This document shows, one piece after another, positions 6,965 to 63,283 of a stretch of DNA of 64,000 nucleotides. Each line of letters opens with the position of its first letter. Positions within the stretch are counted from its first letter, which is position 1. Made by a program: the position numbers and the translations under genes. The notes beneath the pieces were generated by a model that saw nothing but the letters and a program-made list of their open reading frames with translations, was not told the DNA's origin and ran no database searches. The stretch comes from a virus, in the IMG/VR virus record IMGVR_UViG_3300042923_001092, positions 1-64,000 of that record; one strand, 5' to 3'.

Positions 6965-8674
6965 ATGGCAGAAAAGATCAGAAAAAATAGTCAGCTAGAT
7001 GGTAATACTAAAGCCACTATAATCAAAGATACATCTGGCGATGCTATAGTTGAACTTTCGACTGAAGATATGCTTACAAGTGTTGTTTTTAAACAAAAAG
7101 AAACTTCTAAAAAGATTAAAAAACCAGTTAATGGAACGAGTAAACAGATTGAAGACGAATTTGTTGACTTATATGGTTCTGATATCATAGAACCCCCATA
7201 CAACCAACTTTTATGGGCTAGTTTAATGGAAACTAATACACGATTAGCAAAGCTAATTAGAACATATGCTAGAAATACTGTTGGTTTAGGTTGGAGAATA
7301 GTTCCCAAAAAGGCAATTACTAAAAAAACTACTGCTAAAGAAAAGAAAGCTATTGAAGAAGAAAAGGAAATGCTCGAAGATTTCTTTAATAATATAAGTG
7401 ATATCTTGCCTTTTGAAGAAATATGTTTTAGAGCAAAAGTTGATGAAGAATCTATGGGTAATGGTTATCTTGAAGTTACAAGAGATTTAAAAGGAAAGCC
7501 TATGCATTTATTTCATATTTCCGGACATACAGTTAGAGTCCTTAGAAATAAAAAAGGATTTGTTCAAATAAGAGATGGCCAGAAAGTTTACTTTAAACTT
7601 TTTAATGGCGATTATGATATGAATTATCTAACTGGAGAAATAGTTGCAAAAGGCGCACTGAATTATGAGGAAAGAGCAACTGAAATTATACCTTTTCAGA
7701 TATATACGCCAAGAGATTCATATTATGGAATACCAAGATATGTAAGTACTGCAGATGCTATAGCAGGAAATAAACTTTCTGCAAGAAGAAATTTGTCTTT
7801 CTTTAAAAATGATGCAACTCCAAGAATGGCAATAACAGTTGCCAATGGACAGCTCACTACTGGATCTATACAAGAAATTAAAGATTTTGTAAATAGTGAA
7901 GGTAAAGGTGTAGATAATGCTCATAGAGCTATGATTATTCAAGCAAAAGGTAAAAATATGGGTGATGCTAGCCAAAATAATGTAAAAATTGATGTAGTAC
8001 CTTTGACTGTAGGACAAACTGACGACGGCTCATTTATTAAATATAGAGAGGCAAATGATGAAGAAATAAGAGAAGCATTTGGTATAGGCGAAGTATTTCT
8101 TGGTTCTAAAGGTACTGTTAATAGGGCTACAGCATCTATCCTTAGAGAAATAACTAATAATCAAGAATTTATACCAGATGCTAAAGTAAAAGAATTTATG
8201 ATTAATCAGACAATCTGCAAAGATCTTGGTGCGAGACTTTGTAAATTAGAATTTGTAAGGCCTTCTGCTCTTGGTGAATTAGATATGGCAGATATTTTTG
8301 CAAGATATTTACAGGGTGGTGGTATTACTCCTAATGATATAAGACATCAACTTGGAAAAGATGAATATTCTGAAGAATGGGCAGATAAACCAATACAGAT
8401 AGCATTAGTTGAATATCAAATGGGATTGTTAGCAGAACAAGGCGCTGCCTTAGGTGGCGATAATGGTAAGACTGATTCTAACAACGACGAAAATAATGAA
8501 GGTAATAATACCGATGAAGATGAAAATAATGACTCTAAAGATGGTTCTAATAAATCTAATAAGGAAAAAAATGAACAAGTTGAGAAGATAAGATTGAAAA
8601 TAATAGATACTGTTCAAAAAATGTTAGATCAAAGTATGACAACAGCAATCATCAGCTTAGATGATGATAACTAA
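6965..8674 (+). CDS. Portal protein
   Basis: This 569-residue protein forms the dodecameric ring at the head vertex through which DNA enters and leaves. The recognisable portal features are the LWASLMETNTRLAKLIRTYARNTVGLGWRI helix-strand segment (about 80-115), a GNGYLEVTRD strand region, the PRDSYYGIPRY motif (about 245-258), and the REANDEEIREAFGIGEVFLG segment (about 358-380), all typical of PBSX/HK97-type portals. The C-terminus (about 500-545) is an Asn/Asp/Glu-rich low-complexity linker and then a short helix. It sits directly after terL with a strong AAGGAGGG site. Confidence 0.85.
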   Translation: MAEKIRKNSQLDGNTKATIIKDTSGDAIVELSTEDMLTSVVFKQKETSKKIKKPVNGTSKQIEDEFVDLYGSDIIEPPYNQLLWASLMETNTRLAKLIRTYARNTVGLGWRIVPKKAITKKTTAKEKKAIEEEKEMLEDFFNNISDILPFEEICFRAKVDEESMGNGYLEVTRDLKGKPMHLFHISGHTVRVLRNKKGFVQIRDGQKVYFKLFNGDYDMNYLTGEIVAKGALNYEERATEIIPFQIYTPRDSYYGIPRYVSTADAIAGNKLSARRNLSFFKNDATPRMAITVANGQLTTGSIQEIKDFVNSEGKGVDNAHRAMIIQAKGKNMGDASQNNVKIDVVPLTVGQTDDGSFIKYREANDEEIREAFGIGEVFLGSKGTVNRATASILREITNNQEFIPDAKVKEFMINQTICKDLGARLCKLEFVRPSALGELDMADIFARYLQGGGITPNDIRHQLGKDEYSEEWADKPIQIALVEYQMGLLAEQGAALGGDNGKTDSNNDENNEGNNTDEDENNDSKDGSNKSNKEKNEQVEKIRLKIIDTVQKMLDQSMTTAIISLDDDN

Positions 8675-9812: not shown

Positions 9813-9902
9813 ACAAAAGAATTAAATCAATTATGATTTAATATATAATTACTATTTTAATCTATAATAATGAAAATAATTTTTAAGAAAGGAGGATATA
9901 TA

Positions 9903-11969
9903 ATGGCAACAATAGATATTAATAAATCTTTTGAGTTTGGAGTTAGACCTATAAGTGTTTGGAAAGATGATTCTACAAATAAACATTATGTTAATGCAGT
10001 CGCTTCTGATACAGAAGAAGATTATCATGGTGAAAGATTATCTTTAAATGCTTTAAATGGTCTAGTTAAGTGCATAAATAACAAAGAACCATATGCAGTA
10101 ACATTACTTCCAAGTCATTGGGATGCTTTCGAAATAGGAGTTTGTGAAAGTTCAAAAGTAATAGATAGTCAAGATGTATCAGGAGCTAAAGCATTATCCG
10201 TTGATATTGAACTTGATCTTGATTATCCGGAAGCCAGGTCATTATATAATGATGTCAAAAAAGGCAAATCTAAAAAGCAGCTTTCTATAGGAGGCTATTT
10301 AAATCCTGACAATGAGAATGCTTATTATTGGGAACCAAAGATGAAATATGATGATAATGGAAATTTAGTTCAAGATTGGGTCTTAGTGCTTGATGATGTT
10401 ATTTTAGAGCACATAGCAGTAACAAGAGCAAATAAGGCTGCTAATAATAGATCTGGTTTTGTAGGCACAATTGCCAAGTCTTTAGGACTAGAAAAACCAA
10501 AGGATTTTATCATTAAAGAGCAAGGTTTTAATGTTCTTAACGATACTAAAAATAAGTTCTGGGAAGTTAAAAATTCCGCTAAAAATAAAGGTGAAATTTT
10601 CATTTATGGAGACATTGTTAGCTATAAATGGTGGGATGAAGATGTTTCCGCAAACAGCCTTATTAAAGATGTAAAAGATCTTGGAGATATTTCAGAACTT
10701 GATATTAGAATTAACTCCGGTGGTGGAAGTGTATTTGCTGCTGCTGCTATTTTAAGTTATTTAAGAAGTCATAAAGCATTTAAAACTGTTTATATAGACG
10801 GTTTAGCTGCTTCAGCTGCTTCTGTAATAGCTATGGCTGGAGATAAAATTTGTATGCCTTCTCATGCTATGATGATGATTCACAACCCAGCTACTATTGC
10901 ATGGGGCGATTCAAGAGAAATGAGGAAAACTGCAGATACTTTAGATAAGATTAGAGACTCTATTGTAAATGCATATCAGACAAAATGTGGTAAAGATTAC
11001 GAAACCATTTGCAATTTAATGGATGAAGAGACATGGATGACTGGTAAAGAAGCGGTAGAACAAGGGTTTGCAGATGTTGTTCTTGATAATGTAGAAATAT
11101 CAGCATACTATGAAAAAGATATTTTAAATGTAAACGGTTTGAGCATTGAATCTTCAAGATTCAAGAATAAATCAAAAATTACAGAAATTATGAAATCAAT
11201 AGAAAAGGAGGGAGGCATTAGCATGGCCAAAAACGGTGTAAACAAAGGTATGGCAAATGGATGGGGTAAAGCCGTTAATAATTTCTTAAATCCTGCAAAC
11301 AATGAAAATGAGAAAGCTAAAGCTGAAGAAGCTGCTAAAATCGAAAATGCTAGAAAAGCATTAGAGGTTTTAAATTCGCTAAACGGGCTGGATAACTTAC
11401 CCGAAGATTTAAAAGCTGCTATTAACAGTCTTAATACTGCTCCTGCAGCTAATACTGATGAAGTTGATCCTGTTAATTCCGGTTCAGAAGATCCTGTTGT
11501 AGATCCCGAAAATACTGAAGGTTCTGAAGAACCTGTTACAGAAGATAATCCTACAGACAATCCTGAAAATACTGAGGGATCTGAAGGGCCTGAAACTAAT
11601 CCTGCTACAGAGCCTGAAAACTTTAATCCTGAGTCTTTTAAAGATTCAATTATGGATGAGGTTAAAAACTTAATTAATGGTATTCAGGAAGAAAATAAAA
11701 AATCAATGGAAAGTGTTGGAGCTTCTGTTGGAAAAATTATCGGAGAAGTTGTTAAGCAGCAGCTGGAACCTTTAAATTCCAAAATTTCTGCTATTGAAAA
11801 ATCTGCTGGTGGAAGTAAAAGTTTAAGCGGTCAGGAAAAGCCTGCTGTTACTAAGCAGAAAACCACTACTGAAGATACAGTTGATGAAAGCAACATGTGG
11901 GATGGTTTTATTAAAAACGCACTTCCTACAGATTTTAAAAACAAATATAATGAAACGGAGGAACAATAA
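9903..11969 (+). CDS. Prohead protease-scaffold polyprotein with two protease domains
   Basis: The start at 9903 follows AAAGGAGG; the in-frame ATG at 9870 lacks a ribosome site. Residues 20-190 resemble an HK97-family prohead protease: ASDTEEDYHGERLS, SHWDAFEIG with His72, KKQLSIGGYL with Ser128, and HIAVTRANKAANN. Residues 215-400 are a ClpP-like protease: INSGGGSVFAAAAI oxyanion region, GLAASAAS with Ser304, MMIHNPA with His327, and a GFADVV Asp. After residue 440 comes a helical, acidic scaffold region with PENTEGSE repeats (about 535-565). Maturation proteases cut scaffold and capsid inside the prohead. Two protease folds in one chain is unusual. The major capsid gene follows after 2 nt. 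Confidence 0.75.
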   Translation: MATIDINKSFEFGVRPISVWKDDSTNKHYVNAVASDTEEDYHGERLSLNALNGLVKCINNKEPYAVTLLPSHWDAFEIGVCESSKVIDSQDVSGAKALSVDIELDLDYPEARSLYNDVKKGKSKKQLSIGGYLNPDNENAYYWEPKMKYDDNGNLVQDWVLVLDDVILEHIAVTRANKAANNRSGFVGTIAKSLGLEKPKDFIIKEQGFNVLNDTKNKFWEVKNSAKNKGEIFIYGDIVSYKWWDEDVSANSLIKDVKDLGDISELDIRINSGGGSVFAAAAILSYLRSHKAFKTVYIDGLAASAASVIAMAGDKICMPSHAMMMIHNPATIAWGDSREMRKTADTLDKIRDSIVNAYQTKCGKDYETICNLMDEETWMTGKEAVEQGFADVVLDNVEISAYYEKDILNVNGLSIESSRFKNKSKITEIMKSIEKEGGISMAKNGVNKGMANGWGKAVNNFLNPANNENEKAKAEEAAKIENARKALEVLNSLNGLDNLPEDLKAAINSLNTAPAANTDEVDPVNSGSEDPVVDPENTEGSEEPVTEDNPTDNPENTEGSEGPETNPATEPENFNPESFKDSIMDEVKNLINGIQEENKKSMESVGASVGKIIGEVVKQQLEPLNSKISAIEKSAGGSKSLSGQEKPAVTKQKTTTEDTVDESNMWDGFIKNALPTDFKNKYNETEEQ
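11223..11969 (+). CDS. Nested in-frame scaffold protein
   Basis: An ATG at 11223 lies in the frame of the 9903-11969 polyprotein, 7 nt after GGAGG within AAAGGAGGGAGG (11205-11215). This is as strong as any true start here. It would give a 248-residue protein beginning MAKNGVNKGMANGW, with an Ala/Glu-rich helix, an acidic Pro/Glu/Thr repeat region and a C-terminal coiled-coil-like stretch. This mirrors lambda C/Nu3, where the scaffold is made separately from the 3' end of the protease gene. It would supply excess scaffold over protease. The internal start is inferred from sequence alone. Confidence 0.65.
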   Translation: MAKNGVNKGMANGWGKAVNNFLNPANNENEKAKAEEAAKIENARKALEVLNSLNGLDNLPEDLKAAINSLNTAPAANTDEVDPVNSGSEDPVVDPENTEGSEEPVTEDNPTDNPENTEGSEGPETNPATEPENFNPESFKDSIMDEVKNLINGIQEENKKSMESVGASVGKIIGEVVKQQLEPLNSKISAIEKSAGGSKSLSGQEKPAVTKQKTTTEDTVDESNMWDGFIKNALPTDFKNKYNETEEQ

Positions 11970-11971
11970 CA

Positions 11972-13285
11972 ATGGCTAATGAATTAAATAACAGTCAGGA
12001 AGAAGTCCTGAAGACCATTGAGACTGCTGACTTTGGTAATGGAGGTTTACTTGACCCCAAGCGCCAGAAACAATTTCTTACTTATATAAGGGATTACGGT
12101 AAAATGCTTCCCATGGTAAGATTTGAGAGGCTTTCACAGTCTCAGATGACTCTCGATAAGTTATATATCGGAGAACCTGTTACAGAATCTGTTGAAGAAA
12201 ACAGCAACGCTGCTAATCCTGCCAAAGTAGCTACAAGCCAATTACATTTACAGACAAAGAAGCTGAAATCCAGCTGGAACATTACCACAGAAACCCTCGT
12301 TGATAACATCGAACAGAAGGGTTTTGAAACTACAATGATGCAGGGAATGACCAAAAGAATTTCCACTGATATCGAATTACTGGCTATCCAGGGTGACAGA
12401 ACTAAGTATAACGGTGCAACAGATACATTCGGTCGCTTATTAAAAAGAGCAAACGGCTGGGATGCACTTACAGAATCTGCACATATCTTGGATGTTGGTG
12501 GTGCTACAATTCAGAAGGGTATTTTTGCTGAAATGGTAAGAATGATGCCTCAGCAGTATCTTCAGGATGCTGACTTAAGATGGTTCGTTTCCAAATCTGT
12601 AGCAATTGACTGGATGGATCTTCTGGCTGACAGAGGAACTGCAGTTGGTGATAATGCTCTTAACGGAAACAGTGTATCTCCTTACGGTATTCCATTAGTT
12701 GAAGTTCCTTTACTTCCTGATAATAAGCCTGTTACATCATATTCCGGTAAAGCTGCAGTAGTAATTGGAAATCAGCCCGATCCGTTTGAAATTGTTGCTG
12801 GCGAAAATGATAAGATTAAAATCTCCATAGATGGCGTTACCGCTGTTACTGTAACTCTTAAACCCGGTACACATCGTGTAGGTGCAATTGCGGCTATGAT
12901 TAATGCTACTACAGGCTTGGCAGGTATTGCTTCTGATGATACACATGGTCGTTTGGTTCTTAAATCAAAGACAGTTGGAAATTCATCTTCTATTGCTTTA
13001 ACTTCTATTGCCGCCGATGCTTATGATGAACTTGGGTTATCTGAAGGCACCAATACTGGTACTTCCAGCGGATCCTTAACTACTACAAACGACGGTTCAT
13101 TTATCTGGTTGGCAAATCCTAAGAACTTTATTGCTGCCATGAGAGGTACCACCAGAATTTATACTGAGTTCAACAAGGACTATGACCGCGTTGAAACAGT
13201 TATCTACAATGAAGTTGACTTCTCAGTAGAAAATGATGATGCTATCGTTAAGGCCGTTAACCTTAGAAAACGCGATTTAATCTAA
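11972..13285 (+). CDS. Major capsid protein (HK97 fold) with inserted domain
   Basis: This 437-residue protein follows the protease/scaffold. The N-terminal half has the phage capsid pattern of an ordered N-arm, KLKSSWNITTETLVDNIEQKGFE and the long DIELLAIQGD helix. The C-terminal IYNEVDFSVENDDAIVKAVNL strand closes the fold. Residues about 258-370 look inserted between the PYGIPLVEVPLLPDN loop and FIWLANPKNFIAAM. The insert resembles the IN-type beta module (KIKISIDGVTAVTVTL, an AAMINATTGLAG helix, GRLVLKSKTVGNSSSI) found in phage sheath and flagellar proteins, and is probably surface exposed. Codons are richer in G/C than in neighbours, as expected for the most abundant virion protein. A terminator follows. 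Confidence 0.85.
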   Translation: MANELNNSQEEVLKTIETADFGNGGLLDPKRQKQFLTYIRDYGKMLPMVRFERLSQSQMTLDKLYIGEPVTESVEENSNAANPAKVATSQLHLQTKKLKSSWNITTETLVDNIEQKGFETTMMQGMTKRISTDIELLAIQGDRTKYNGATDTFGRLLKRANGWDALTESAHILDVGGATIQKGIFAEMVRMMPQQYLQDADLRWFVSKSVAIDWMDLLADRGTAVGDNALNGNSVSPYGIPLVEVPLLPDNKPVTSYSGKAAVVIGNQPDPFEIVAGENDKIKISIDGVTAVTVTLKPGTHRVGAIAAMINATTGLAGIASDDTHGRLVLKSKTVGNSSSIALTSIAADAYDELGLSEGTNTGTSSGSLTTTNDGSFIWLANPKNFIAAMRGTTRIYTEFNKDYDRVETVIYNEVDFSVENDDAIVKAVNLRKRDLI

Positions 13286-31451: not shown

Positions 31452-34400
31452 ATGGCCGGCAATTTAATTTTAAATCCTAATATGTTAGAAGTAACAGATC
31501 AGAATTATGATGTGCTGACATCTGACTGCCTTGATAGGACTGTACAAGGGAAAATCACAGACCCAAAATATTATTTCTACTTAGGAGGTTGTGATTTTCC
31601 CGACTATCCAAATGGACTACCAGCTGGAGTAACAATGAGTAGTTTTGAGTATGCTGGAGGTGAACTGGCTAATGATTCAGTAGATAATGACCCTTTAATA
31701 TCTAAAAGTATTATGCTAGATGCTTCTAACCCTCTTACGAATTTTGGAAGTATAGGAAAAGAACATAATCCTATATATGGTGGTTCTGGTGGTGTTACTC
31801 AAGTCGTTTATATAGGACAAACAGAAGCTAAACCTTTTAGGTTTTCATGTTATTGTAAATGTGAGGATGTTGTAGGTAACGCTAGAGTATTATTTGATGT
31901 TGTAGGCTTTGATAATACTGGTTCTGGGACATATTTGTCATATGTTTCAGGTACTCATGATTTTCAAAAATTATCAGAATTAAAAACGTTTAGCTTTCCA
32001 GTAAAATATGCATTTCTTCATTTTTCTGTTCAAAATATGTCATCAGGAAAAGCATGGTTTGCTAAACCTCTAATAGAAGAAATAGATATGGACCTTATTG
32101 TTCCGGATCCTGATGAAAGAGTAATGAATCCGATATTTGTTCATACAAGCAATGAAGTCGATACGGTGGCTTGGGAAACTACAAATTGTGAAAGATTTGA
32201 AGATATAGATTTAATTTATTTAAACCCTTATATGGGGACAATGTTAAAAATGACAAGCGGTTCTTCCTTACAGCAAAATGCTATTATTGTAAGCGATGTT
32301 TCTCACGCTATATTAAACGTAAAATGTACTTTAAGAAGTTTTGGTCATACTGTTGTCAAAATAACTCTTACAGAAAGAGGAAGACACAGAAACAAAATGA
32401 ATGAAGTTTCTAGAATATATAATATATCTTCTGATGATATTTGGAGACAAATAAGATTAATGACTTATTCAAATGTATTGATAGAAAAAATAGATTTGAA
32501 AATAGAGCATATTTCAGGAGATGATATATTAATATGCAATGCATCAATAACTGAAAACACTATACCACCTTCTAATATATCTGAAGATAAGGTTTTTACT
32601 AAAATCGAAAGTGATGTTGAAATACCTAATTTACCTAATTATGATGATACTCTATCTATCAAATTGGAAAATGAATTAAGTCCTAAATATTTAGAGCTTA
32701 ATCCTAATGATGAATTTAATGGAGTTGCATACTTAACAAATGGCATGATAGGTAAATTTGTACCTTATAAAGAATTATCTGGATACAGTTTATATCAAAA
32801 CAAAAAATTAACTAAAATAGATGATGATTCATATTACTTAACTCCATGGGACCCAAATATTGTCGAATTAAAAACTCCGGACGAACGCCTAAGAAATTTC
32901 TTACCTGCACCTCATATCAACGAAACAGAAGATGTAGTTATAGAAGTAGATGGACATATTAAGGCCGGAGACAGAAGGTATTATTGTGCCACTGCATATA
33001 ATGAATTTGGAGAGTCTACTAAATCAAATGATGTAAGATATATAATACCAGACAGTTATTCTGATTATAATGTAATAAATTTAGAAATAACTCCAGTTAA
33101 AGGAGCAACTGGATATAGAATTTATATGTCAAAAGCATATGATAATGAAGACCCTAATATGCCTGGAGATTGGGCACAATACGGAGCTGATTATGTGTTG
33201 TGGGGAGAAAATGCTTTATTAGATACTATATCTCATGAGCAGCTAAGATCAAATGGATATTTTTATTATGATTATGGTTCTAATGATGATAATATGAAAC
33301 CAGGTACTCCAAGTATGACAGTAAATACTGCTAAATTCTGGTACAAAGATGATGCTTATCAAACTGTCCATTTAACTAGTACTTATTATAGTAAATATGA
33401 CATTTATGCTGGATGCTTAATTGAAGATTATATTATTCAGGCTATTAAATATTTACCTCATAAACGAAAACTCTATTTGGCCACTAATAAAGGCGTTTTT
33501 GAATCCGATGATAAATATACAAACAAGCTATACAAGGTTTTAGACAGTAATCTAATACATTCTATGTCATATGTAGAAAGTGGACTTAAATATTATACAA
33601 ATGCAAATATTGGCTTTTTACAAACTGAAACTAATAAGTATTATCTCAATTATGTTACCGGAGTTTTGACAATTAATGATTTAAATAATACTTATATAAG
33701 CTCAAGTGAAATAGAGGTTCCAGATGCTATATTGAATGGATTTTCTAAATATTATGATAAATTCATAACTCATAATAAAACTAACGGAACTTTTATAATA
33801 TTTGAAGAAAACGGCACTATAGATAAGATATTACCTTTTGTAATAACTGATTTTGAAAAATGGGATATTACTGGTTCTATTTTGTCAGTTCTTATGAATG
33901 ATGGAGTAGTAAAATTATTTGGAATTTTCGCAGAAGAGTATTATGGAAGATTTAATAGTTTAGATACTGCTTATAGAGGTTTACATTTCCCTGCGTTATG
34001 CAAACCAAGACTTCCAGATGAATCAGTTGAAACTGATGATCATGAAGCTTTAGTAAATGGGACATTTACAGTTTGGAATGGTCAAAAAACTTCTCCTGAA
34101 GGTTTTCATATTATTTATGATACGCAAAGTGTAGTAAACTTAGGACAATCAGACGATGTAGCTATAGTAAATACTAAAGCACATGTTTATAAAACTTTAG
34201 TAAATTCATGGGGAAGTATTTATAAGCAAGATGTTGAAGTAGATGCTGATTCAACGTATATAATATCTCTCTATACTAAAGCTTCGATAAAATCATTTGG
34301 TTCTTTAGGAGTAAAAGTCAAAAATGCTCAAGGGCAAGGTGAAGAAATATATTATAGTTTCGATTGCGAAACTGAATATGAAAAAAGATCGTTTGAAATA

Positions 34401-37088
34401 CATTGTGATGAAAATGCAACTGCAATTGATTTCAGAGTATTTTATTATGGTACAGACGATCACCCTATAACTTATTACACTAATATGTTATCTGTAATGT
34501 TAAAAGAAGATCAGCCAAAAGAGCTTGACTTTAGTTATATTTCCAATGGCGACTTTTTAAATTATGGCCAATCTGGAAGTAGTCCTGATGGGTGGTCACA
34601 TTTTAATGATGTTTCTTCGGCAATTGAAAATAGTAGCATGGGAAGTATAGGAAAAGCTTGGAAATTAACTTTGCCTATAGCACCGGCAGAACCAGTAATA
34701 ATTACACCAAGATTTTCAGCAGAACAGGGTGACAATTTAGAATTAAAATTTTTATATAAAACTACAGATCCATCCAATGGAATTATTGGTTGTGGCATAG
34801 AATATTTTGATATAAACAATAACTATATAGACTCCAACTTTAAAGATATTTCTATATCTGGAAATAATGTAACAAATGAAGTGTTAGCAAGATTTGATAT
34901 TAATTATAATTCTGCTTATTGTCATATTAAAATAGTTATTAAGAATTATAATTGCATATCTTGGTTTGAAAACATGACAGCACTGCCTTATATCAATATC
35001 GATGCTAATGAAAAGGTTGTAAATCCAAGATTTGAAGAAGGTTTATATGGCTGGAATCATTCTCCAAACGTATATATAGGGGACTCCATAAGAAACTTAG
35101 AAGGTGGATATAAAGAATTAATACCAAATTGTGCTATATGTAAAATAGATTCTATTTTGGACCCTGATACTACTTATACAGAACTAAGGCAAGAAGTATT
35201 TATAAACCAGTTGACAAACAATAGAATACATGTAAAACATAAAAGTAGATCTGTTAGCAAAACTCCAACTGGAAATATACCTTCAAGATGCGACATGGTA
35301 ATATCTTATATGGATAATACTTCAACTTATAATAATTTTGAACTTTCAGATGGGTCAATGTACAATGCAGAACCTTATTTAAAACTACCTTATGATAATT
35401 GGACTAATATAGATTTTTATATAGACCCTATAAAACCAGTTAAGTCTATAATTTTTATTTTTGCTACTGGTTTTGGACATGAAGGAACTTTATATGTTAA
35501 AAGCACTTCGATTGAAGAGATCACACAAGAACTACCGTTTAATGATATTGACCTTCAATTATCTGATTACAGTTTAGTTAATTTAAATTTAAGGGAATCT
35601 TTTTATAAAGAAATAAATGGAAGTGCTAAATTATTATATAATGGCAATCCAGTTTATGCTAAAAATAAAAATATAGATATTGAAATTTCTCCAGTTGCTT
35701 TTGACTATATATTTACAACTACAAATAAATTTGGTAAAGCTAAATTCAAATTTAATATTATTAATTTTGTTGGAATATTAACAGTCACTGCAAAATTAGG
35801 TGGAGTATCAGTATCTAAAACTATTACTGTAACAACCGGTACATTTAAATCAAAATTAAGAAATTTCTTAAGACCAAAACCTATTGGACTTCCAGATTCT
35901 ATAAGCAATATTTATTTAGAGGTAATTGCACAAAGGACTAAAAAACCTGTACAAAGAGTTCATGATAGAATAGGTACTTGGGAAGTATTTAGAAGATCAG
36001 TAGTAAGTCCTGCACAAACAGAAGATTATGATATACATTGGGCTGAAAACAGTTCAGAATATGCTTTTGTATATCCTAATTCTTTGTATATAGACTATTA
36101 TGATTATTTAAGTTTTTATCCATCTTATGGCGCAGCTACTGAAATAGCTGAAAAAAGAAGCGAATGGAGATGTGTTGAGCCAACTGGTATTTCTCAACCG
36201 TTTGGAGATGGAAGAAGTTATTATAATTGGAAAGACCCTGAATGTAGAGCATGGTTTGCAGGAAGAATGATACAACGTACTTCTGAAGTTACAAATTGGT
36301 CTGATGGAACTTATTTGGATGATTTTTGGGCTGAAAGTTATGAAGCTGATGGATTTGACTGGGGTGCTAAAGCATCATGGTTATTAAATTTTAGAACTAT
36401 TAAAGAAAGACTTGAAAATCAAGGAGAAGGGTTAAGGCTTACTGCAAAAGAATATCATAAATATGGTTTATATTTTACTTCTAATTATGGTGATTCTAGA
36501 AAAATTGATTATAGTAAGTCAGAACCAGATTTAGACGAAGGAAGTAAAACACTTGCTGATAAATTTGATGGTTATTTAAGAGAAGTTTGGTTTTATGGTG
36601 ATTTAAGGCCGCCAATTGAAGCTAGATTTCAAATATCTAAAGTAAGAGATGAAATTGAATTTTTAAGATATTGCAATAAAAATAATAAATTTGTTGCTTG
36701 TCTTGCTGGTCAGTTAATGCATGGTTATGATGCAAGAATATTTGCATTAGCAACTTTATTATTTGGAAAAGGTGATTATACTTATTTTGCTTGGAGAAGT
36801 TGGGACTTTAGTTATTGGCATTATGGAATGGCTAATCATCAAACTATCCTTCCGGAGCAAACAATTTACGTTGGAGAGCCTAAATCTGAATATGTGTATG
36901 ATAATGACGGATTTTTTAGTAGAGAATTTGATAATTGTATAGCTCTATTAAATGTAAATCCTAATGCAAATTCAAAAACTTATACATTACCAGATGGTGT
37001 ATGGTTTACTACTAGAGGCCAAATGTTTACTGGTTCTATTACTGTAACTTTTCAAAAAGCATATGTTTTAGTTAAAGAAAGACCATAA
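31452..37088 (+). CDS. Giant tail fibre with glycosidase-like C-terminal domain
   Basis: This 1,878-residue protein is the largest in the window. The N-terminal third contains CBM/jelly-roll-like modules (ERVMNPIF, later TEYEKRSFEIHC and VVNPRFEEGLYGWNHS). The middle holds an Fn3-like module (RRYYCATAYNEFGES, VKGATGYRIYMSKAYD, about residues 510-575) and an unknown section with many Tyr residues. Residues about 1,530-1,860 resemble a TIM-barrel glycosidase-like family (GHL15-type): NSLYIDYYDYLSFYP, CRAWFAGRMIQRT, SDGTYLDDFWAE with an acidic cluster, then YLREVWFYGDLRPP. It probably recognises and perhaps degrades surface polysaccharide. The glycosidase call is inferred from the pattern. Confidence 0.65.
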   Translation: MAGNLILNPNMLEVTDQNYDVLTSDCLDRTVQGKITDPKYYFYLGGCDFPDYPNGLPAGVTMSSFEYAGGELANDSVDNDPLISKSIMLDASNPLTNFGSIGKEHNPIYGGSGGVTQVVYIGQTEAKPFRFSCYCKCEDVVGNARVLFDVVGFDNTGSGTYLSYVSGTHDFQKLSELKTFSFPVKYAFLHFSVQNMSSGKAWFAKPLIEEIDMDLIVPDPDERVMNPIFVHTSNEVDTVAWETTNCERFEDIDLIYLNPYMGTMLKMTSGSSLQQNAIIVSDVSHAILNVKCTLRSFGHTVVKITLTERGRHRNKMNEVSRIYNISSDDIWRQIRLMTYSNVLIEKIDLKIEHISGDDILICNASITENTIPPSNISEDKVFTKIESDVEIPNLPNYDDTLSIKLENELSPKYLELNPNDEFNGVAYLTNGMIGKFVPYKELSGYSLYQNKKLTKIDDDSYYLTPWDPNIVELKTPDERLRNFLPAPHINETEDVVIEVDGHIKAGDRRYYCATAYNEFGESTKSNDVRYIIPDSYSDYNVINLEITPVKGATGYRIYMSKAYDNEDPNMPGDWAQYGADYVLWGENALLDTISHEQLRSNGYFYYDYGSNDDNMKPGTPSMTVNTAKFWYKDDAYQTVHLTSTYYSKYDIYAGCLIEDYIIQAIKYLPHKRKLYLATNKGVFESDDKYTNKLYKVLDSNLIHSMSYVESGLKYYTNANIGFLQTETNKYYLNYVTGVLTINDLNNTYISSSEIEVPDAILNGFSKYYDKFITHNKTNGTFIIFEENGTIDKILPFVITDFEKWDITGSILSVLMNDGVVKLFGIFAEEYYGRFNSLDTAYRGLHFPALCKPRLPDESVETDDHEALVNGTFTVWNGQKTSPEGFHIIYDTQSVVNLGQSDDVAIVNTKAHVYKTLVNSWGSIYKQDVEVDADSTYIISLYTKASIKSFGSLGVKVKNAQGQGEEIYYSFDCETEYEKRSFEIHCDENATAIDFRVFYYGTDDHPITYYTNMLSVMLKEDQPKELDFSYISNGDFLNYGQSGSSPDGWSHFNDVSSAIENSSMGSIGKAWKLTLPIAPAEPVIITPRFSAEQGDNLELKFLYKTTDPSNGIIGCGIEYFDINNNYIDSNFKDISISGNNVTNEVLARFDINYNSAYCHIKIVIKNYNCISWFENMTALPYINIDANEKVVNPRFEEGLYGWNHSPNVYIGDSIRNLEGGYKELIPNCAICKIDSILDPDTTYTELRQEVFINQLTNNRIHVKHKSRSVSKTPTGNIPSRCDMVISYMDNTSTYNNFELSDGSMYNAEPYLKLPYDNWTNIDFYIDPIKPVKSIIFIFATGFGHEGTLYVKSTSIEEITQELPFNDIDLQLSDYSLVNLNLRESFYKEINGSAKLLYNGNPVYAKNKNIDIEISPVAFDYIFTTTNKFGKAKFKFNIINFVGILTVTAKLGGVSVSKTITVTTGTFKSKLRNFLRPKPIGLPDSISNIYLEVIAQRTKKPVQRVHDRIGTWEVFRRSVVSPAQTEDYDIHWAENSSEYAFVYPNSLYIDYYDYLSFYPSYGAATEIAEKRSEWRCVEPTGISQPFGDGRSYYNWKDPECRAWFAGRMIQRTSEVTNWSDGTYLDDFWAESYEADGFDWGAKASWLLNFRTIKERLENQGEGLRLTAKEYHKYGLYFTSNYGDSRKIDYSKSEPDLDEGSKTLADKFDGYLREVWFYGDLRPPIEARFQISKVRDEIEFLRYCNKNNKFVACLAGQLMHGYDARIFALATLLFGKGDYTYFAWRSWDFSYWHYGMANHQTILPEQTIYVGEPKSEYVYDNDGFFSREFDNCIALLNVNPNANSKTYTLPDGVWFTTRGQMFTGSITVTFQKAYVLVKERP

Positions 37089-47258: not shown

Positions 47259-47507
47259 ATGGTTAAAAAATGTGGGGTTTTTAAATGTAATAATAAAATT
47301 GATTTTAGTGTATTATGCTTAAGCTGCGTTACAAAAGACAATATTGTATGTAATATTAAAAATCAGTGTAATTATTGTAAACAAAAATCGTATTGTACAT
47401 TTAAATGTATCGTTTGTCCGGAATGTGGAGAAGAGTTTCATAAATCTCCTATAATGAATAAGTTCGAATGTCCAAATTGTAAAAAGGAGCTTAATGATGG
47501 AATATAA
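47259..47507 (+). CDS. Cys-rich zinc-ribbon protein
   Basis: This 82-residue protein has 14 Cys residues. They are arranged as CGVFKC, CLSC, CNYC, YCTFKC, CIVCPEC and CPNC. It therefore appears to consist of two or three small zinc-binding knuckles. Such proteins often bind nucleic acids or adapt RNA polymerase. It overlaps the start of the YyaC-like gene by 11 nt, indicating coupling. Confidence 0.6.
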   Translation: MVKKCGVFKCNNKIDFSVLCLSCVTKDNIVCNIKNQCNYCKQKSYCTFKCIVCPECGEEFHKSPIMNKFECPNCKKELNDGI

Positions 47508-48120
47508 ATATAATAGTACATATAAGGTATTGAAAACAATTTCTTTTACTAAAGAAATAAGTACAACAAGAATTTTTAAAAATGATAAAAATTATAAAGA
47601 GACAATAAATAATACACTATATTCTTTAATAAGTTCATTAGGTAAAGAATATAATAAAATATGTATTGTTTGTATAGGATCTGATAGAGCAACAGGAGAT
47701 TGTCTAGGTCCTATTGTTGGAAAGTTTTTAAGTGAAAAATTTGAAGACGATGATTTTATAAAAGTGTATGGAACTTTATTAAATCCTATTCATGCAAAAA
47801 ATATTGAAGAACTAATGGATTCGTTAGATTATTCTAATTCATTAGTAATAGCGATCGATGCTTCTGTAGGAGATGACCAAAATCCTTTGCATGAAGTTGG
47901 TAGTATAATTATAAGAGATGCTGCATTAATGCCTGGTAAAGGTTGTGGTAAAGATCTTGGTCATATAGGAGATATCTCAATCACTGGTATTACTACACAT
48001 AATGCTTTTTATTTAAGAGATGTAAGACTATTATATGTTTTTGATATGGCAGAAAAGATTTATAAAGGATTAAAACCAGTATTAAATACTTTAAAGAAAG
48101 AATTTGTTTTAAGGGGATAA
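47497..48120 (+). CDS. YyaC-like spore protease family protein (DUF1256)
   Basis: The start at 47497 is 7 nt after AAGGAG; ATG 47494 is possible. This 207-residue protein matches YyaC/DUF1256 in order: IGSDRATGDCLGPIVGKFLSE, VYGTLLNPIHAKNIEELMDSLDY, VIAIDASVGDDQNP, and a PGKGCGKDLGHIGDISITGIT section. The family is related to GPR-type germination proteases, and its members occur in spore-forming bacteria. A phage copy implies a spore-forming host, and may interfere with or exploit sporulation. That the phage one is active is unproven. Confidence 0.75.
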   Translation: MEYKYNSTYKVLKTISFTKEISTTRIFKNDKNYKETINNTLYSLISSLGKEYNKICIVCIGSDRATGDCLGPIVGKFLSEKFEDDDFIKVYGTLLNPIHAKNIEELMDSLDYSNSLVIAIDASVGDDQNPLHEVGSIIIRDAALMPGKGCGKDLGHIGDISITGITTHNAFYLRDVRLLYVFDMAEKIYKGLKPVLNTLKKEFVLRG

Positions 48121-52292: not shown

Positions 52293-53210
52293 GTGTCTAA
52301 ATACATAATTGGTGGTGGAATAACTGGATTAATAGCTTCTTTTTATAATCCAGACTATCGAATTATAACAGATAAAATTGGTGGCCAGATGGCTGCTAAT
52401 ACTGCTGGTCCTAGGATTCTTGAAGTAAATGAATATTCAAGAATGTTTTTAAAAGATTTGGGATTTGAAAACGTAAATACTAAATTTGCTAAGATTGGAT
52501 ATAAAGTAAGAGGCAAGATAGTAGATTCTATAAGTAAAAGCTTAAGAAATAAATATTATTTAAAATCAAGATGCCTTGATGACGCCAATTTAATACCAAA
52601 TTCTATAATGTCAGACGGAAAGAATACTATTGAATATTTTGATATAAGTTGGGATGAAATAATTGAAAGACTTATATCAAATATCAAAAAGCCAGTAATT
52701 AATAAAATAACTTCAATAGACACTGAAGAAAAAATAATCGTTTTAGATGGTCTTCCATTTAGATATGAAAAATTAATATCGACAATTCCTGCACCGGCTT
52801 TTTTTAAAGCATCTAAGCTTAATCCAGAAAAAGAGCTAAAATTTATTCAAAAGGTATTTATCATAGTAGATAGTAGTACCATTGATATGAGAGAATATGA
52901 ATATATTTATTATCCAGAATGTCAATACCCATATCATAGGATATCGAAAGTTGGTTCTAATAAGCTTTCGATAGAATTTACTACTAATGAAGATACATCT
53001 AAGATACTTAATTATTGGAAACATATTTCCATACAAAATATAATTATACCAATAGGTCAGATACAATCTGGAATGATTAGTAAAGTTAAAGATATATCTT
53101 TTTTTGGCAGATACGCTTGCTGGGATCATGATTTAAAAGTTGATGATGTTATTAGGCAGAGCATAGACTATAATGATACAGAAAGGAAAAATATTTATGA
53201 TGGAATATAA
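52293..53210 (+). CDS. FAD/NAD(P)-binding amine-oxidase-like oxidoreductase
   Basis: The GTG start at 52293 lies 9 nt after AAAGGAGG. The 305-residue protein begins with a dinucleotide-binding fingerprint GGGITGLIASF and has KIGGQMAANTAGPRI after the first strand. A typical second FAD motif follows near the C-terminus (ISFFGRYACWDHDLKVDDVI). It resembles the UDP-galactopyranose mutase/amine oxidase fold, but is short for these enzymes. It would oxidise an amine or another small substrate. It opens the nucleotide/redox block and overlaps the next gene by 14 nt. Confidence 0.65.
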   Translation: MSKYIIGGGITGLIASFYNPDYRIITDKIGGQMAANTAGPRILEVNEYSRMFLKDLGFENVNTKFAKIGYKVRGKIVDSISKSLRNKYYLKSRCLDDANLIPNSIMSDGKNTIEYFDISWDEIIERLISNIKKPVINKITSIDTEEKIIVLDGLPFRYEKLISTIPAPAFFKASKLNPEKELKFIQKVFIIVDSSTIDMREYEYIYYPECQYPYHRISKVGSNKLSIEFTTNEDTSKILNYWKHISIQNIIIPIGQIQSGMISKVKDISFFGRYACWDHDLKVDDVIRQSIDYNDTERKNIYDGI

Positions 53211-54226: not shown

Positions 54227-54673
54227 ATGGCTATTTTATTTTTTGTAGGTGTTGATAAAACAGGTAAAACTACTTTATTAAAAAATGTTTTAAAAGAAAC
54301 TAATCGTCATATATGTATTGATAGATTTACTCCATGTCAAGTAGTATACGGAAGAATACATGATAAAAAAGACACACCAAAAGTTAAAGAATTTAGAGAA
54401 TTAGAAACATTTTTACGATATTCTCCTATACCAGCTGCATTTGTTTATGTGTCAGCAGAGACAGATATGATAATAAAAAGATTTAAGCAGCATGATGAAA
54501 AAGATATAGATATTAGTCAAATAAGTATTGTTAAAATTTTATATGATCAGTACTTAAGTTCATCTCCGCTACCATGTTTACGTATTGATACAACCGGAGA
54601 CTCAATAGAAAAATGCACTAATACGATTATCGAGTTTGCAGATAGGCTTGATAGAAAGGAGATTTATATATGA
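54227..54673 (+). CDS. Thymidylate kinase-like dNMP kinase
   Basis: This 148-residue P-loop protein begins MAILFFVGVDKTGKTTLLKNVL (GVDKTGKTT), with CIDRFTPCQVVYGR in the DRF position and a later LRIDTTGDSIEK stretch. These are features of the thymidylate kinase family, although the length is short (usual about 200), so part of the lid region may be missing. It would phosphorylate a deoxynucleoside monophosphate, perhaps a modified one. The stop overlaps the next gene's start (ATGA). Confidence 0.65.
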   Translation: MAILFFVGVDKTGKTTLLKNVLKETNRHICIDRFTPCQVVYGRIHDKKDTPKVKEFRELETFLRYSPIPAAFVYVSAETDMIIKRFKQHDEKDIDISQISIVKILYDQYLSSSPLPCLRIDTTGDSIEKCTNTIIEFADRLDRKEIYI

Positions 54674-55686
54674 AAGCAAAATTAGGGCTTGGTGGATATT
54701 TTACAGACACCAAAGACAATCCAGCTTCCATTATAAGATATGCTTATGATTTTGGTGGAGTAAGATTTTTTGATACTTCACCAGTATATGGAACTAGTGA
54801 GCAAATTTTTGGACATGCACTAAAAGATTATCCAAGAGAATCTTATGAACTTTCAACAAAAACAAAAGCTAAAACTGTTGAAGAGCTTCATTCTTCGTTT
54901 TTACAAAGCTTATTTAATCTTAACACTAATTATATAGATATGTATTTTGGTCATTCAGCTATAGATGATGATAATACATGGAAAGATTTTCAAAAGATAA
55001 TAAATGAACTTTTAAGATTAAAGTCAATCAATTATATCAAAAAGATTGGAGTATCTGGACATTCTGTTTCTGCAGCTATAAAAGCGATAAACAGTGGTTT
55101 GATTGATGTTATAATGGTACCTCATTCTATAATGTACAGAAAATTTGAAGGAGTGATTCAATTAGCTAAGTCCAAAAACATAGAAGTAATTACTATGAAA
55201 AACTTTGCTAGTGGAATATTGCTTGGTGGTCCGGATACTAATGAATATAAAAAAGACGTATCAATGCAGGATATTATCAATTTTTCTTCTTATTGCGGAG
55301 ATATAATAATACCAACTCCAAGATCTATTAATCAATTTAAAGAAATAAGTAACTGTTATCTAAATGCAGCTGAACTTAATACATCTAAATTAATTAATAT
55401 AGAAAGTAAGATAATAAAACATCTTGGCACGGATTTTTGCAGATTTTGTAATGAATGCAGACCCTGCCCTAAGCATGGATGGCAAATGTCACAACCAAGC
55501 ATCTTAAAGGCAATGTTATATCAGTCAAAGTTAGGAATAGATGGAAAAGAAAGATATTCTAATTTTGCTTATAATGTAAATCATTGCGAAGGATGTGATA
55601 GCGAATGCTCGCATATGTGCCCTTTTGGTATAGATATTAAAGAAAAAATGCAAAATGCACACAACATTTTTACAGGAGGAAAATAA
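54670..55686 (+). CDS. Aldo-keto reductase with C-terminal ferredoxin-like domain
   Basis: This 338-residue protein shows aldo-keto reductase features: RFFDTSPVYGTSEQIFGHAL (Asp and Tyr of the family's catalytic set), TKTKAKTVEELHSSFLQSLFNLNTNYIDMYFGHS, and IIIPTPRSINQF near the end of the barrel. The C-terminus contains Cys257, Cys260, Cys263, Cys266 and a second Cys group (NHCEGCDSECSHMCPFGIDI), as in 4Fe-4S-bearing AKR proteins. It would reduce a carbonyl or another group. Its position directly before the radical SAM gene suggests consecutive steps on one substrate. Confidence 0.75.
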   Translation: MKAKLGLGGYFTDTKDNPASIIRYAYDFGGVRFFDTSPVYGTSEQIFGHALKDYPRESYELSTKTKAKTVEELHSSFLQSLFNLNTNYIDMYFGHSAIDDDNTWKDFQKIINELLRLKSINYIKKIGVSGHSVSAAIKAINSGLIDVIMVPHSIMYRKFEGVIQLAKSKNIEVITMKNFASGILLGGPDTNEYKKDVSMQDIINFSSYCGDIIIPTPRSINQFKEISNCYLNAAELNTSKLINIESKIIKHLGTDFCRFCNECRPCPKHGWQMSQPSILKAMLYQSKLGIDGKERYSNFAYNVNHCEGCDSECSHMCPFGIDIKEKMQNAHNIFTGGK

Positions 55687-56754
55687 ATGGATGTAGTTAA
55701 TGAAAAAGCAGCTAAAAAAATATTGCCATATGTAAAGTCAATAGAAAATGGTACTATAAAAGGCCCAATTTCGTTGCACTTATTAATAACTGACTTTTGT
55801 GTTAATAAGTGCAACATGTGTGGACATTGGAAGACTAAATGCAAAAAAAGTTTAAGTCTTGATGTTATAAAAAACATTTGGTCAGAGATGAACGAAAATG
55901 ATTGTGAATCAGTTTGTCTTACTGGCGGAGATCCAATTTTGCATCCAAATTTTGAGGAAATATTAGATCTTAAAAGAAATTTTGACCTTGGTGTTATTTG
56001 TACCGGAAATTTTAATCCAAAATTTGATTTTGAAAAGCTTTCCAAACTTAAATGGTTACGCTTTTCTATTGATTCTTTAAACCTTGATAGATATATGGAA
56101 ATAAGAGGTTTGAGTAATTTATATTCAGTTATAATTCCTAATCTTATAAAGGCTAAGAATTATATAGATCAGGTCGGTATAAATTTCACTATACAAAAGA
56201 AAAATATTATGGATGTAAGAGATATTGTAAAATTTGCTTATAATGAAGAAATTTATAGACTTATGATATATCCAATGCATGGTGATAGTGACTTATGCTT
56301 AAATTCTGAAGATATTAAAGTTGTTTTAGAACAATTAAGAGAAGTAATTAAGTACGGATTTCATAAAGAAATACCAGAAAATAATATTGTATTTTTGTAT
56401 CAAAGTTTAAAAGCAGCTTTAGAAAAAGACACTGAAGTAAGAAAAGCAGTTTTTGATTATTCTAAATATCCTTGTATTATAAATAAAATACATTTATCTG
56501 TAGGTTCTGATGGAAATGTATTTCCTTGTGAAATGATTGCAGATGATACAGATGCATATGGAGAAAGAGATTTTTGGGATACACATTCACATTATAATAG
56601 TCTTGGAAACGTGAATGAAGAAAGTTTGATGAAAATATGGAAAAATAATTTTGACAACTCCTTTTGTTCCGGAAAATGTGAAAATTGCTTCAGTAGATAT
56701 TTACCTATTAATAAAGCTTATTATGAAAATATTGGAAAGAGGATATTTATATGA
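55687..56754 (+). CDS. Radical SAM/SPASM-like enzyme
   Basis: This 355-residue protein has the radical SAM cluster motif C38-x3-C42-x2-C45 (LITDFCVNKCNMCGHWKT). SVCLTGGDPILHPNFEEI follows as the GGxP SAM-binding element. The C-terminus has CIINKIHLSVGSDGNVFPCEMI and FCSGKCENCFSRY, like a SPASM/twitch auxiliary cluster. Enzymes of this type modify peptides, nucleotides or small molecules. It starts at the codon following the AKR gene and overlaps the following small gene by 4 nt, which supports co-function. Confidence 0.75.
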   Translation: MDVVNEKAAKKILPYVKSIENGTIKGPISLHLLITDFCVNKCNMCGHWKTKCKKSLSLDVIKNIWSEMNENDCESVCLTGGDPILHPNFEEILDLKRNFDLGVICTGNFNPKFDFEKLSKLKWLRFSIDSLNLDRYMEIRGLSNLYSVIIPNLIKAKNYIDQVGINFTIQKKNIMDVRDIVKFAYNEEIYRLMIYPMHGDSDLCLNSEDIKVVLEQLREVIKYGFHKEIPENNIVFLYQSLKAALEKDTEVRKAVFDYSKYPCIINKIHLSVGSDGNVFPCEMIADDTDAYGERDFWDTHSHYNSLGNVNEESLMKIWKNNFDNSFCSGKCENCFSRYLPINKAYYENIGKRIFI

Positions 56755-57119: not shown

Positions 57120-58166
57120 ATGGAAAACTCAATTCAAAAAATAAATGAATTAAGAAGTGTTATGGGAACTTTACCAGATCAGGACCCGCAGCTTAAAACT
57201 GAATTTATTAAGGGCGTTACTGGAATTTCAGTTGAACTTATCGGAACAGTAGAAAATCCGTATAAGCCGATGTTTATATTAGGGACTACATGCTGGGGTA
57301 AGAAAGTTAATAAATGGGAAGAAACATTACCCGAACACAGGTTTGAAGTAGTAAAGGCGGCTTTAAGGGGTCAGGCATTACCTCTTGCATTGGAAACTCC
57401 TCAGTTTTCATTTGCTATTGAAGGTCCATCAAGAGCGGCATTTGATCAGATTGCAAGAGCAAGGCTTGGTGTTGTATTTTCTGCCAGAGGTATGAGAGAT
57501 AATAATTGGAAAGACGCTTCAATTCGTATTCCGACTTCTTTGTGGCCTACAAAAAAAGAAGATATTTTGCATGATGAATATCTTCTTGATGGCAAAAGAA
57601 GCGATGAACATAATAATGCTTATATAAAGGTTGAAAACTTTAAAAATATAGAAATTACAATGCTTGAAGTAAAACAACTTTACGCTGATATTGTAGATGT
57701 TGGAAAAGGTTCTTGGCAGGCTGCAAGGAGCGTATTGCCTTTATATGTAGTTTATGGTTTTTCAATGGGAATTAATTTCCAAGCATTAAGAAGCTTATGC
57801 AGCTCAAGAATGAAATTTTGCGAAATGGAAGATACAGTTGCAGTAGCATGGCTTTTAGCAAAAGCAGTATCTGAAAAATTCCCTTTACTTGGTTCTTATT
57901 TAAGACCCGGATGTGACTGGTCTGGTAAATGTCAGTACCATAAAGCTTATTCTTTATCTGAAATGTTCGGTTGTTTATTTAAAGAATGTGGCAGAAACGA
58001 ATGCACCGATACAAATGATTATGCAGAATTTAATGAAACATGTACAAATTATCGTGATCTTGAGGAACAGCTTGGTATTCATATTACAAGGCCAAATGAG
58101 TGGCCTAAATTTGAAAATTTCGATGATTTGTCGGATATAGATAAAGCATTATTTATGCAGGATTAA
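57120..58166 (+). CDS. Divergent ThyX homologue with altered active-site motif and Cys-rich tail
   Basis: This 348-residue protein has the order of flavin-dependent thymidylate synthase: LALETPQFSFAIEGPSRAAFDQIARARLG in place of the LEH-x-x-FSF-x-I/V-EGVSRA-x-x-HQ-x-VRHR segment, and SWQAARSVLPLYVVYGFSMGINFQALRSLCSSRM in place of ARxxLPxxxYTEFYxxxNARxLxHFLxLR. The signature RHR is R113-A114-R115, and the S-x-R element that follows is not conserved. The C-terminal 60 residues carry many Cys (CDWSGKCQYH, GCLF-x-ECGRNEC), possibly a metal site. The gene is relatively GC-rich and probably highly expressed. It may act on dUMP or another nucleotide in a modified way. The function is unproven. Confidence 0.65.
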   Translation: MENSIQKINELRSVMGTLPDQDPQLKTEFIKGVTGISVELIGTVENPYKPMFILGTTCWGKKVNKWEETLPEHRFEVVKAALRGQALPLALETPQFSFAIEGPSRAAFDQIARARLGVVFSARGMRDNNWKDASIRIPTSLWPTKKEDILHDEYLLDGKRSDEHNNAYIKVENFKNIEITMLEVKQLYADIVDVGKGSWQAARSVLPLYVVYGFSMGINFQALRSLCSSRMKFCEMEDTVAVAWLLAKAVSEKFPLLGSYLRPGCDWSGKCQYHKAYSLSEMFGCLFKECGRNECTDTNDYAEFNETCTNYRDLEEQLGIHITRPNEWPKFENFDDLSDIDKALFMQD

Positions 58167-62578: not shown

Positions 62579-63283
62579 ATGCGAGTTATTAAACCATCGT
62601 TTGAAATTAAACGCAATTTGAGTGGGGAAGAAATTTTAAAGAATATTGAAAGAGCTGGCAGGATTTGTTATAAATCCGAAGATTTAATAACTTCAGATTC
62701 TGCAAAAAAATTTGTAAAAGGCCTTTTAAATAGAGGCCATGAAGCAATGATCGAACATGCTTTTGCTACCGTTATTATAGTTTGTGATAGAGGAGTTTCT
62801 CATGAAATTGTTCGCCATAGAGTTGCATCATATGCTCAGGAAAGTACAAGATATTGCAATTATGGAAAAGAAAAACATGATCAGGAATTGAAATTTATTG
62901 ATATAGGACCAGTTATTGATAGTAAAATTGGTACTACAGTAAAAGATTCAAATGGTGAAAATGTTCTGGTAACAGGTGATTTAGCAGCTTCATGGATTAT
63001 AAGCTGGCTTGATTCAATAGCTGATTCAGAAATAGCATACATGAATATGGTAAATTCAGGATGTCCTGCAGAACTTGCAAGATCAGTTCTTCCTAATTCA
63101 ATAAAAACAGAAATAGTTGTCACAATGAATTTAAGAGAATGGCGACATTTCTTTAAGCTTAGGGCTATAGGTACAACGGGAAAACCTCATCCTCAAATGG
63201 TAGAAATAGCTAAACCTTTATTAAGGGAAATGGCTGAATACATACCAGTTGTATTTGACGATCTTATTGAATTGATTAGTTAG
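62579..63283 (+). CDS. thyX: Flavin-dependent thymidylate synthase
   Basis: This 234-residue protein converts dUMP to dTMP using FAD and methylene-tetrahydrofolate. It has the full ThyX signature: IEHAFATVIIVCDRGVSHEIVRHRVASYAQESTRYCNYG, with RHR at residues 79-81 followed by S and S-x-R, and later CPAELARSVLPNSIKTEIVVTMNLREWRHFFKLRAIG. This is the canonical copy, unlike the divergent homologue at 57120-58166. It has an AAAGGAGG site and its own promoter. Having two ThyX-type genes plus one ThyA-like gene within 6 kb is notable. Confidence 0.95.
   Translation: MRVIKPSFEIKRNLSGEEILKNIERAGRICYKSEDLITSDSAKKFVKGLLNRGHEAMIEHAFATVIIVCDRGVSHEIVRHRVASYAQESTRYCNYGKEKHDQELKFIDIGPVIDSKIGTTVKDSNGENVLVTGDLAASWIISWLDSIADSEIAYMNMVNSGCPAELARSVLPNSIKTEIVVTMNLREWRHFFKLRAIGTTGKPHPQMVEIAKPLLREMAEYIPVVFDDLIELIS

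Follow-up and report, generated by a model that had tools for sequence, protein, structure and literature searches.

In phage lambda, an in-frame internal start at the end of the protease gene C yields the scaffold, Nu3, as a protein of its own. Among the described systems, those closest to the locus presented here fall on either side of a division between two types of head protease. ClpP-type head maturation proteases with a scaffold tail (PHROG 94; NF045542) are found in Paenibacillus and Vibrio phages, among others. XkdF/HK97-type prohead proteases with a fused or adjacent scaffold (Drs3, Annadreamy, Trina, Vibrio D4 and others) are about 200 aa long, lie between the portal and an XkdG-like capsid gene, and carry an H...S(I/V)G...E order. 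Fusions of a prohead protease with the major capsid protein (NF045540, NF045541) also place head-maturation genes in one frame. Tailed phages draw their head protease from two unrelated folds, herpesvirus-like and Clp-like. Each type has repeatedly displaced the other (Liu and Mushegian 2004, cited by PMC5694885), an account at odds with the premise of a preliminary description of this DNA, that maturation proteases are normally of one fold. According to PMC7824862, XkdF and an S77-type peptidase show complementary patterns in jumbo phages, and T4 gp21 is described in PMC9958956 as cutting off its own N-terminal residues.

The gene described here joins a prohead-protease-like domain, a ClpP-type protease and a scaffold. 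It resembles the ClpP-type systems in residues 215–405, in the Ser/His/Glu set and in the scaffold tail; unlike it, the ClpP-type genes of 52 IMG/VR loci begin at the ClpP domain, with no S78/XkdF-like domain in front. With the XkdF/HK97-type phages it shares homologous portal and capsid proteins, and its N-terminal domain agrees with their proteases in position, size and residue order, but it is too divergent for their models, and no ClpP-family protein occurs in 13 of their whole records. As in lambda, an in-frame start with a ribosome-binding site, recognised here from sequence, marks the protease/scaffold border; lambda has one protease, whereas here there are two, with two internal starts in the relatives G001 and G002. 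The NF045540 and NF045541 fusions combine a single protease with the capsid protein, whereas here two protease classes are joined to a scaffold and the capsid gene is separate. We found no description of a fusion of both protease classes in the full-text literature, as screened by title and abstract and mostly other than subscription papers. Protease displacement is already in print; one gene with both classes is the unusual part.

Organisation of the head module

We analysed a stretch of 64,000 bases (the window), which comprises bases 1–64000 of a virus record 107,581 bases long. The frame of 688 codons is intact, without an internal stop, and its ATG at 9903 is preceded by AAAGGAGG at a spacing of 7. 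The record holds a single copy of the gene and no further ClpP-family gene. It sits between the portal and capsid genes, with two small genes separating portal from protease (Table 1). Sheath and tube genes downstream in the window, recognised by Pfam and PHROG matches, indicate a contractile-tailed phage. The anatomy of the gene is real and well supported, the N-terminal domain being assigned by predicted fold only.

Table 1. Features of the protease–scaffold gene and its neighbours in the window
Feature	Coordinates	Strand	Basis or remark
Portal protein, same head module	6965..8674	+	PF04860, phrog_12
Shine-Dalgarno site AAAGGAGG of whole gene	9888..9895	+	Sequence; start-site scan
Whole gene, 688 aa: prohead-protease-fold domain, ClpP-type protease, scaffold	9903..11969	+	Open frame
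HK97/gp21/XkdF-type prohead protease domain (predicted fold), residues 1–205	9903..10517	+	AlphaFold2, Foldseek, VIA-align; NCBIfam TIGR01543 E 0.018; invariant blocks and spacing
N-domain candidate active site, H72, S128, E169	10116-10118; 10284-10286; 10407-10409	+	
Junction, residues 206–214	10518..10544	+	Relatives carry AAAGGAGG(T) and an in-frame ATG opening the ClpP part; lost in window
ClpP-type head maturation protease, residues 215–405	10545..11117	+	Pfam, PHROG, NCBIfam, residue alignment
ClpP-part active-site set, S304, H327, E376	10812-10814; 10881-10883; 11028-11030	+	
Internal Shine-Dalgarno site AAAGGAGGGAGG of scaffold start	11204..11215	+	Sequence; start-site scan
Nested scaffold frame, codon 441 to end, 248 aa	11223..11969	+	Start common to both relatives (codons 447, 453)
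Major capsid protein, HK97 fold, XkdG-like group	11972..13285	+	PF05065, phrog_1623

The capsid protein has relatives in 209 phage records, and its matches to Streptomyces phage capsids start at residue 1, so that it lacks a long N-terminal pro-region. Directly 3′ of the capsid gene, the loci of G001 and G002 carry an additional gene of about 185 aa (L002:8538-9098, L003:8485-9042), which in L002 matches no Pfam family; the window's list of open reading frames holds none of such size at that place. A resemblance of an extra region of the capsid protein to the next gene of relatives was not supported (E 0.12).

Elsewhere in the window, all on the plus strand where a strand is given, several genes deserve mention. 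A DUF1256 protein (47494-48117, +; PF06866, E 2.5e-42), which we take to be of the YyaC type of spore-forming Bacillota, would hint at such a host and is the sole host clue. An aldo/keto reductase gene, whose product has cysteine clusters that by eye resemble Fe-S motifs, adjoins a radical SAM/SPASM gene (54670-56754, +; PF00248, PF04055, PF13186); upstream lies an FAD-oxidoreductase-like frame without a Pfam match (52293-53210), and the three form a possible metabolic gene cluster. Two ThyX-family proteins (PF02511) are encoded at 57120-58166 (+; E 3.8e-12) and 62579-63283 (+; E 6.7e-42), the former being longer and divergent. A protein of 1878 aa (31452-37088, +) has no Pfam match; its last third is glycosidase-like by eye, and it is possibly a fibre or depolymerase.

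The ClpP-type protease domain

By sequence, residues 215–405 form a head maturation protease of the ClpP type in which Ser304, His327 and Glu376 are intact. The ClpP part matches Pfam CLP_protease PF00574 (E 9.7e-31), phrog_94, head maturation protease (E 1.1e-84; residues 213–642 of the 688-aa protein), and NCBIfam NF045542, 'head maturation protease, ClpP-related' (E 8.1e-64; 214.5 bits against a cut-off of 120). All 54 proteins of a ClpP-type alignment, from the window and 53 IMG/VR loci, keep the three active-site residues. Glu376 aligns with an aspartate of solved ClpP sequences, the catalytic Asp of ClpP. The preliminary description had assigned residues 215–400 to this type, and both the class and its numbering of S304 and H327 hold. 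The 688-aa gene has matches in 1466 records of the phage collection; among the matches listed (60 of the 1466) it is the ClpP part that is matched, from residue 171 onward, and coverage of the gene reaches 80% in none of the records.

Sequence and predicted fold of the N-terminal domain

At E<=1, residues 1–205 matched neither a Pfam family nor any of 50,697 phage records; the best PHROG match, phrog_18978, was insignificant (E 0.08), and a sequence search of the PDB returned two ScdA rows only, at E of about 1. The sole NCBIfam match was to the HK97 prohead protease TIGR01543, at E 0.018 and 15.2 bits, where the cut-off is 59; it covers residues 57–130 and includes His72 and Ser128. The N-terminal domains of G001 and G002 gave no NCBIfam match, and the Pfam S78 and S78_2 models found nothing at E<=10 in the records G000, G001 and G002. 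Comparison with S78/XkdF sets was not significant by hhalign, and MAFFT did not align the domain with them consistently. With a home-made S78 model of eight sequences, the score of the window domain was reached by 3 of 3000 shuffles, that of G001 by 86/3000 and that of G002 by 185/3000. With no significant match to a family profile, the domain is not filed in S78 or XkdF.

Constraint on the domain shows in its three known members: amino-acid identity among them is 0.64–0.70 in the N-terminal part, close to the 0.69–0.80 of the ClpP part and higher than the 0.40–0.47 of the scaffold. None of the three departs from His72, Ser128 and Glu169. Their His-Ser-acid order is that of prohead proteases, and the H-to-S spacing of 56 falls within the 49–58 of eight reference proteases, whereas the S-to-acid spacing is 41 against 27–30 in the same eight. 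Three runs of at least six residues are invariant in this part: KQLSIGGY, which holds Ser128, LVLDDVILEHIAVTR, which holds Glu169, and GFVGTIAKSLG.

The best AlphaFold2 model of the domain reached a pLDDT of 68.9 and a pTM of 0.66 from an alignment of three sequences; the remaining four models were much poorer, and residues 63–74, including His72, lie below a pLDDT of 50 even in the best one. A full-length model of the 688-aa protein (pLDDT 38.7) was set aside. Against the BFVD viral models, Foldseek gave 28 matches at E<=1e-3 (best E 1.4e-10), and 16 of the 20 that are named are prohead, head-maturation or XkdF-type proteases. Against the PDB, the T4 capsid protease gp21 ranked first (E 0.0078). 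VIA-align superposed gp21 at Z 6.6 over 140 residues with an rmsd of 4.5, the next entry having Z 4.0, with the caution that a Z under 8 may reflect merely a common arrangement; the absence of HK97 gp4 from its list is uninformative. These comparisons reject a chance resemblance. On the predicted model, the N-terminal domain has the HK97/T4 gp21/XkdF prohead-protease fold, which is of the herpesvirus-protease-like type, and its candidate active site is probably working. The preliminary description had called residues 20–190 HK97-type; prohead proteases are indeed the closest folds, its residue numbers H72 and S128 are right, and the refuting outcome that it named, an N-terminal region without a protease fold, did not come out of AlphaFold2, Foldseek and VIA-align.

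Two BFVD matches, A0A6J5RFH1 and A0A6J5N5R9, are prohead-protease-like folds in viral proteins of 622 and 679 residues named for Dps/ferritin domains. Judging from the models, these are perhaps further prohead protease fusions in uncultured phages.

Internal starts and the nested scaffold

The preliminary description had placed a scaffold start at 11223. This ATG is in frame, as codon 441, behind AAAGGAGGGAGG, and it is kept in both relatives. In-frame starts with a Shine-Dalgarno (SD) match of at least 5 nt are codons 1 and 441 in the window, 1, 211 and 447 in G001, and 1, 212 and 453 in G002. As a control, the 48 plus-strand frames of at least 150 codons in the window hold 22 ATGs with an SD match of at least 7 nt; 21 of these lie at most 26 codons from the first codon of the frame, leaving 11223 as the sole deep internal one. 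In G001, the two internal starts share the ATGGCCAAAAA context.

The middle start of the relatives, preceded by AAAGGAGG and AAAGGAGGT, lies eight codons before the ClpP match in G002 and coincides with the place where stand-alone ClpP genes start. Because the relatives keep both SD site and ATG at this junction, one gene is able to give three nested products there. Aligned to them, the junction DNA of the window reads AAAGAGCAAGGTTTTAATGTT, with GTT replacing ATG. We also scanned 35 long ClpP-type genes from elsewhere for a start preceded by an SD match of at least 6 nt in codons 185–260. Such a start occurs in 15 of the 35, and by this sequence measure a nested scaffold is common but not universal in the ClpP-type protease class.

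Distribution and origin of the two parts

Full-length homologues were found in IMG/VR only in G001 (111,051 b) and G002 (42,641 b), at 59% identity; scans with the N domain, with its alignment and with a capsid alignment returned the same two contigs. Three members are known in all, every one uncultivated. When 53 IMG/VR loci were fetched by the ClpP part, the long N-terminal domain appeared only in the locus that is G002, and the other 52 ClpP frames extend no further than about 110 codons ahead of their ClpP match. A separate S78 or XkdF gene was found in none of the 53 loci (1,818 frames) with two home-made models, which may miss divergent domains; the open-frame lengths of the 52 loci are independent of these models. 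Many of the loci are short, 28 of the 52 having 1.6 kb on the upstream side as well as 1.5 kb on the downstream side. PF04586 matched 0/50 ClpP records, a count of little weight by itself since the N domain of the window escapes this model too. The N-domain alignment found none among 32 stretches in the genome_contigs scan, and the N-domain model found no relative in 398 bacterial genomes; two weak matches there are false, both being proteins about 220 aa long that by eye are of the corrinoid type. A Lachnospiraceae genome and a Dehalococcoidia MAG with ClpP loci were looked over, with nothing gained.

We then read 13 head regions, chosen by capsid match from the 209 phage records, among which are XkdG-named ones. 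In 9 of the 13 the gene directly before scaffold or capsid is annotated as a prohead, XkdF or serine protease, and in the other four (PhiCh1, PA_L9, CGphi46 and HJ05) the gene in the protease slot has, by eye, the same motifs. The window's capsid model matches all 13 of these S78/XkdF-slot phages, by construction, and its portal model 12; ClpP occurs in 0/13, in loci and whole records alike. Conversely, the capsid, portal and S78/XkdF models each matched 0/52 of the other ClpP loci. As this capsid and portal, in the loci sampled outside the group, accompany the S78/XkdF slot and not ClpP, the N-terminal domain would be native to the head module, with the ClpP-scaffold part as a newcomer.

Discussion

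We think it probable that the gene encodes a head-maturation polyprotein, in which a native prohead protease has been fused in frame to an incoming, complete ClpP-scaffold gene. Most likely, this gene landed behind the head module's own protease and the two then fused, the prohead protease having been there first and the ClpP-scaffold gene having come second. The relatives would make three nested products: two proteases with scaffold, ClpP with scaffold, and scaffold. With its middle start gone, the window would make two, namely few long protease-scaffold chains and many short scaffold chains. The long chains would enter the prohead by their scaffold tails, co-assembling with free scaffold, and after closure of the shell proteolysis would clear out the scaffold, freeing space for DNA. 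In this reading both domains would cut. The scaffold is the likelier substrate, because the capsid protein lacks a long N-terminal pro-region. Since ClpP has no start of its own in the window, the fused form may work as is or the prohead-type domain may cut itself off, much as gp21 sheds its N-terminal residues (PMC9958956).

It is conceivable, though we put it forward only tentatively, that the group is a displacement intermediate with both proteases active in one chain and dividing the work, the relatives making three nested products. The prohead-type domain might, for instance, free or activate the ClpP-scaffold part, while the ClpP part digests the scaffold; such freeing would be needed in the window since the separate ClpP start is lost. 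Rather doubtful is a reading in which ClpP alone cuts and the N domain, a prohead protease that has decayed and lost catalysis, persists for a structural role, in portal or capsid docking or as a pro-domain of ClpP. In its favour, every ClpP chain of the window would bear the N domain, as it would a pro-domain, and ClpP-type genes elsewhere work without one, no comparable domain or S78/XkdF match having been found in the 52 other loci. Against it stand the invariance of His72, Ser128 and Glu169, with the last two in two of the longest invariant runs, and the near-equal identity of N-terminal and ClpP parts; coming from three sequences at about 65% identity, this evidence is weak. The guess in the preliminary description that one protease is inactive finds no support in the sequences, since neither set of residues is broken or varies among the three members.

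That the domain is a small non-protease barrel, an SSB-like OB fold adding a binding function to the ClpP protease, seems to us highly improbable. OB-fold and SSB chains do appear in the lower ranks of the Foldseek PDB list, and no protease family matches the domain significantly by sequence. However, gp21 ranks above them in both Foldseek and VIA-align, where SSB reaches a Z of about 3 or less, the BFVD matches are mostly prohead proteases, H, S and E come in the expected order with a typical H-to-S spacing, and the domain equals XkdF in size and in gene position beside an XkdG-like capsid. It is likewise improbable that the internal starts are due to chance, with a full-length chain only and free scaffold arising by proteolysis. 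This would suit the long ClpP-type genes from elsewhere, 20 of 35 of which showed no such start in the corresponding zone, but a deep, strong SD site with an in-frame ATG occurs once in 48 long plus-strand frames of the window, both relatives have a counterpart at the corresponding place, and the ATGGCCAAAAA context is repeated in G001.

If the polyprotein reading is right, G001 and G002 still show the start site of the incoming ClpP gene legibly at the junction, and the window shows it erased. The group would then make the route of displacement testable, by asking which of the two proteases the phage requires and if it can do without the older. It lends itself to an evolutionary question that is already recognised, and it looks like a protease swap halted midway.
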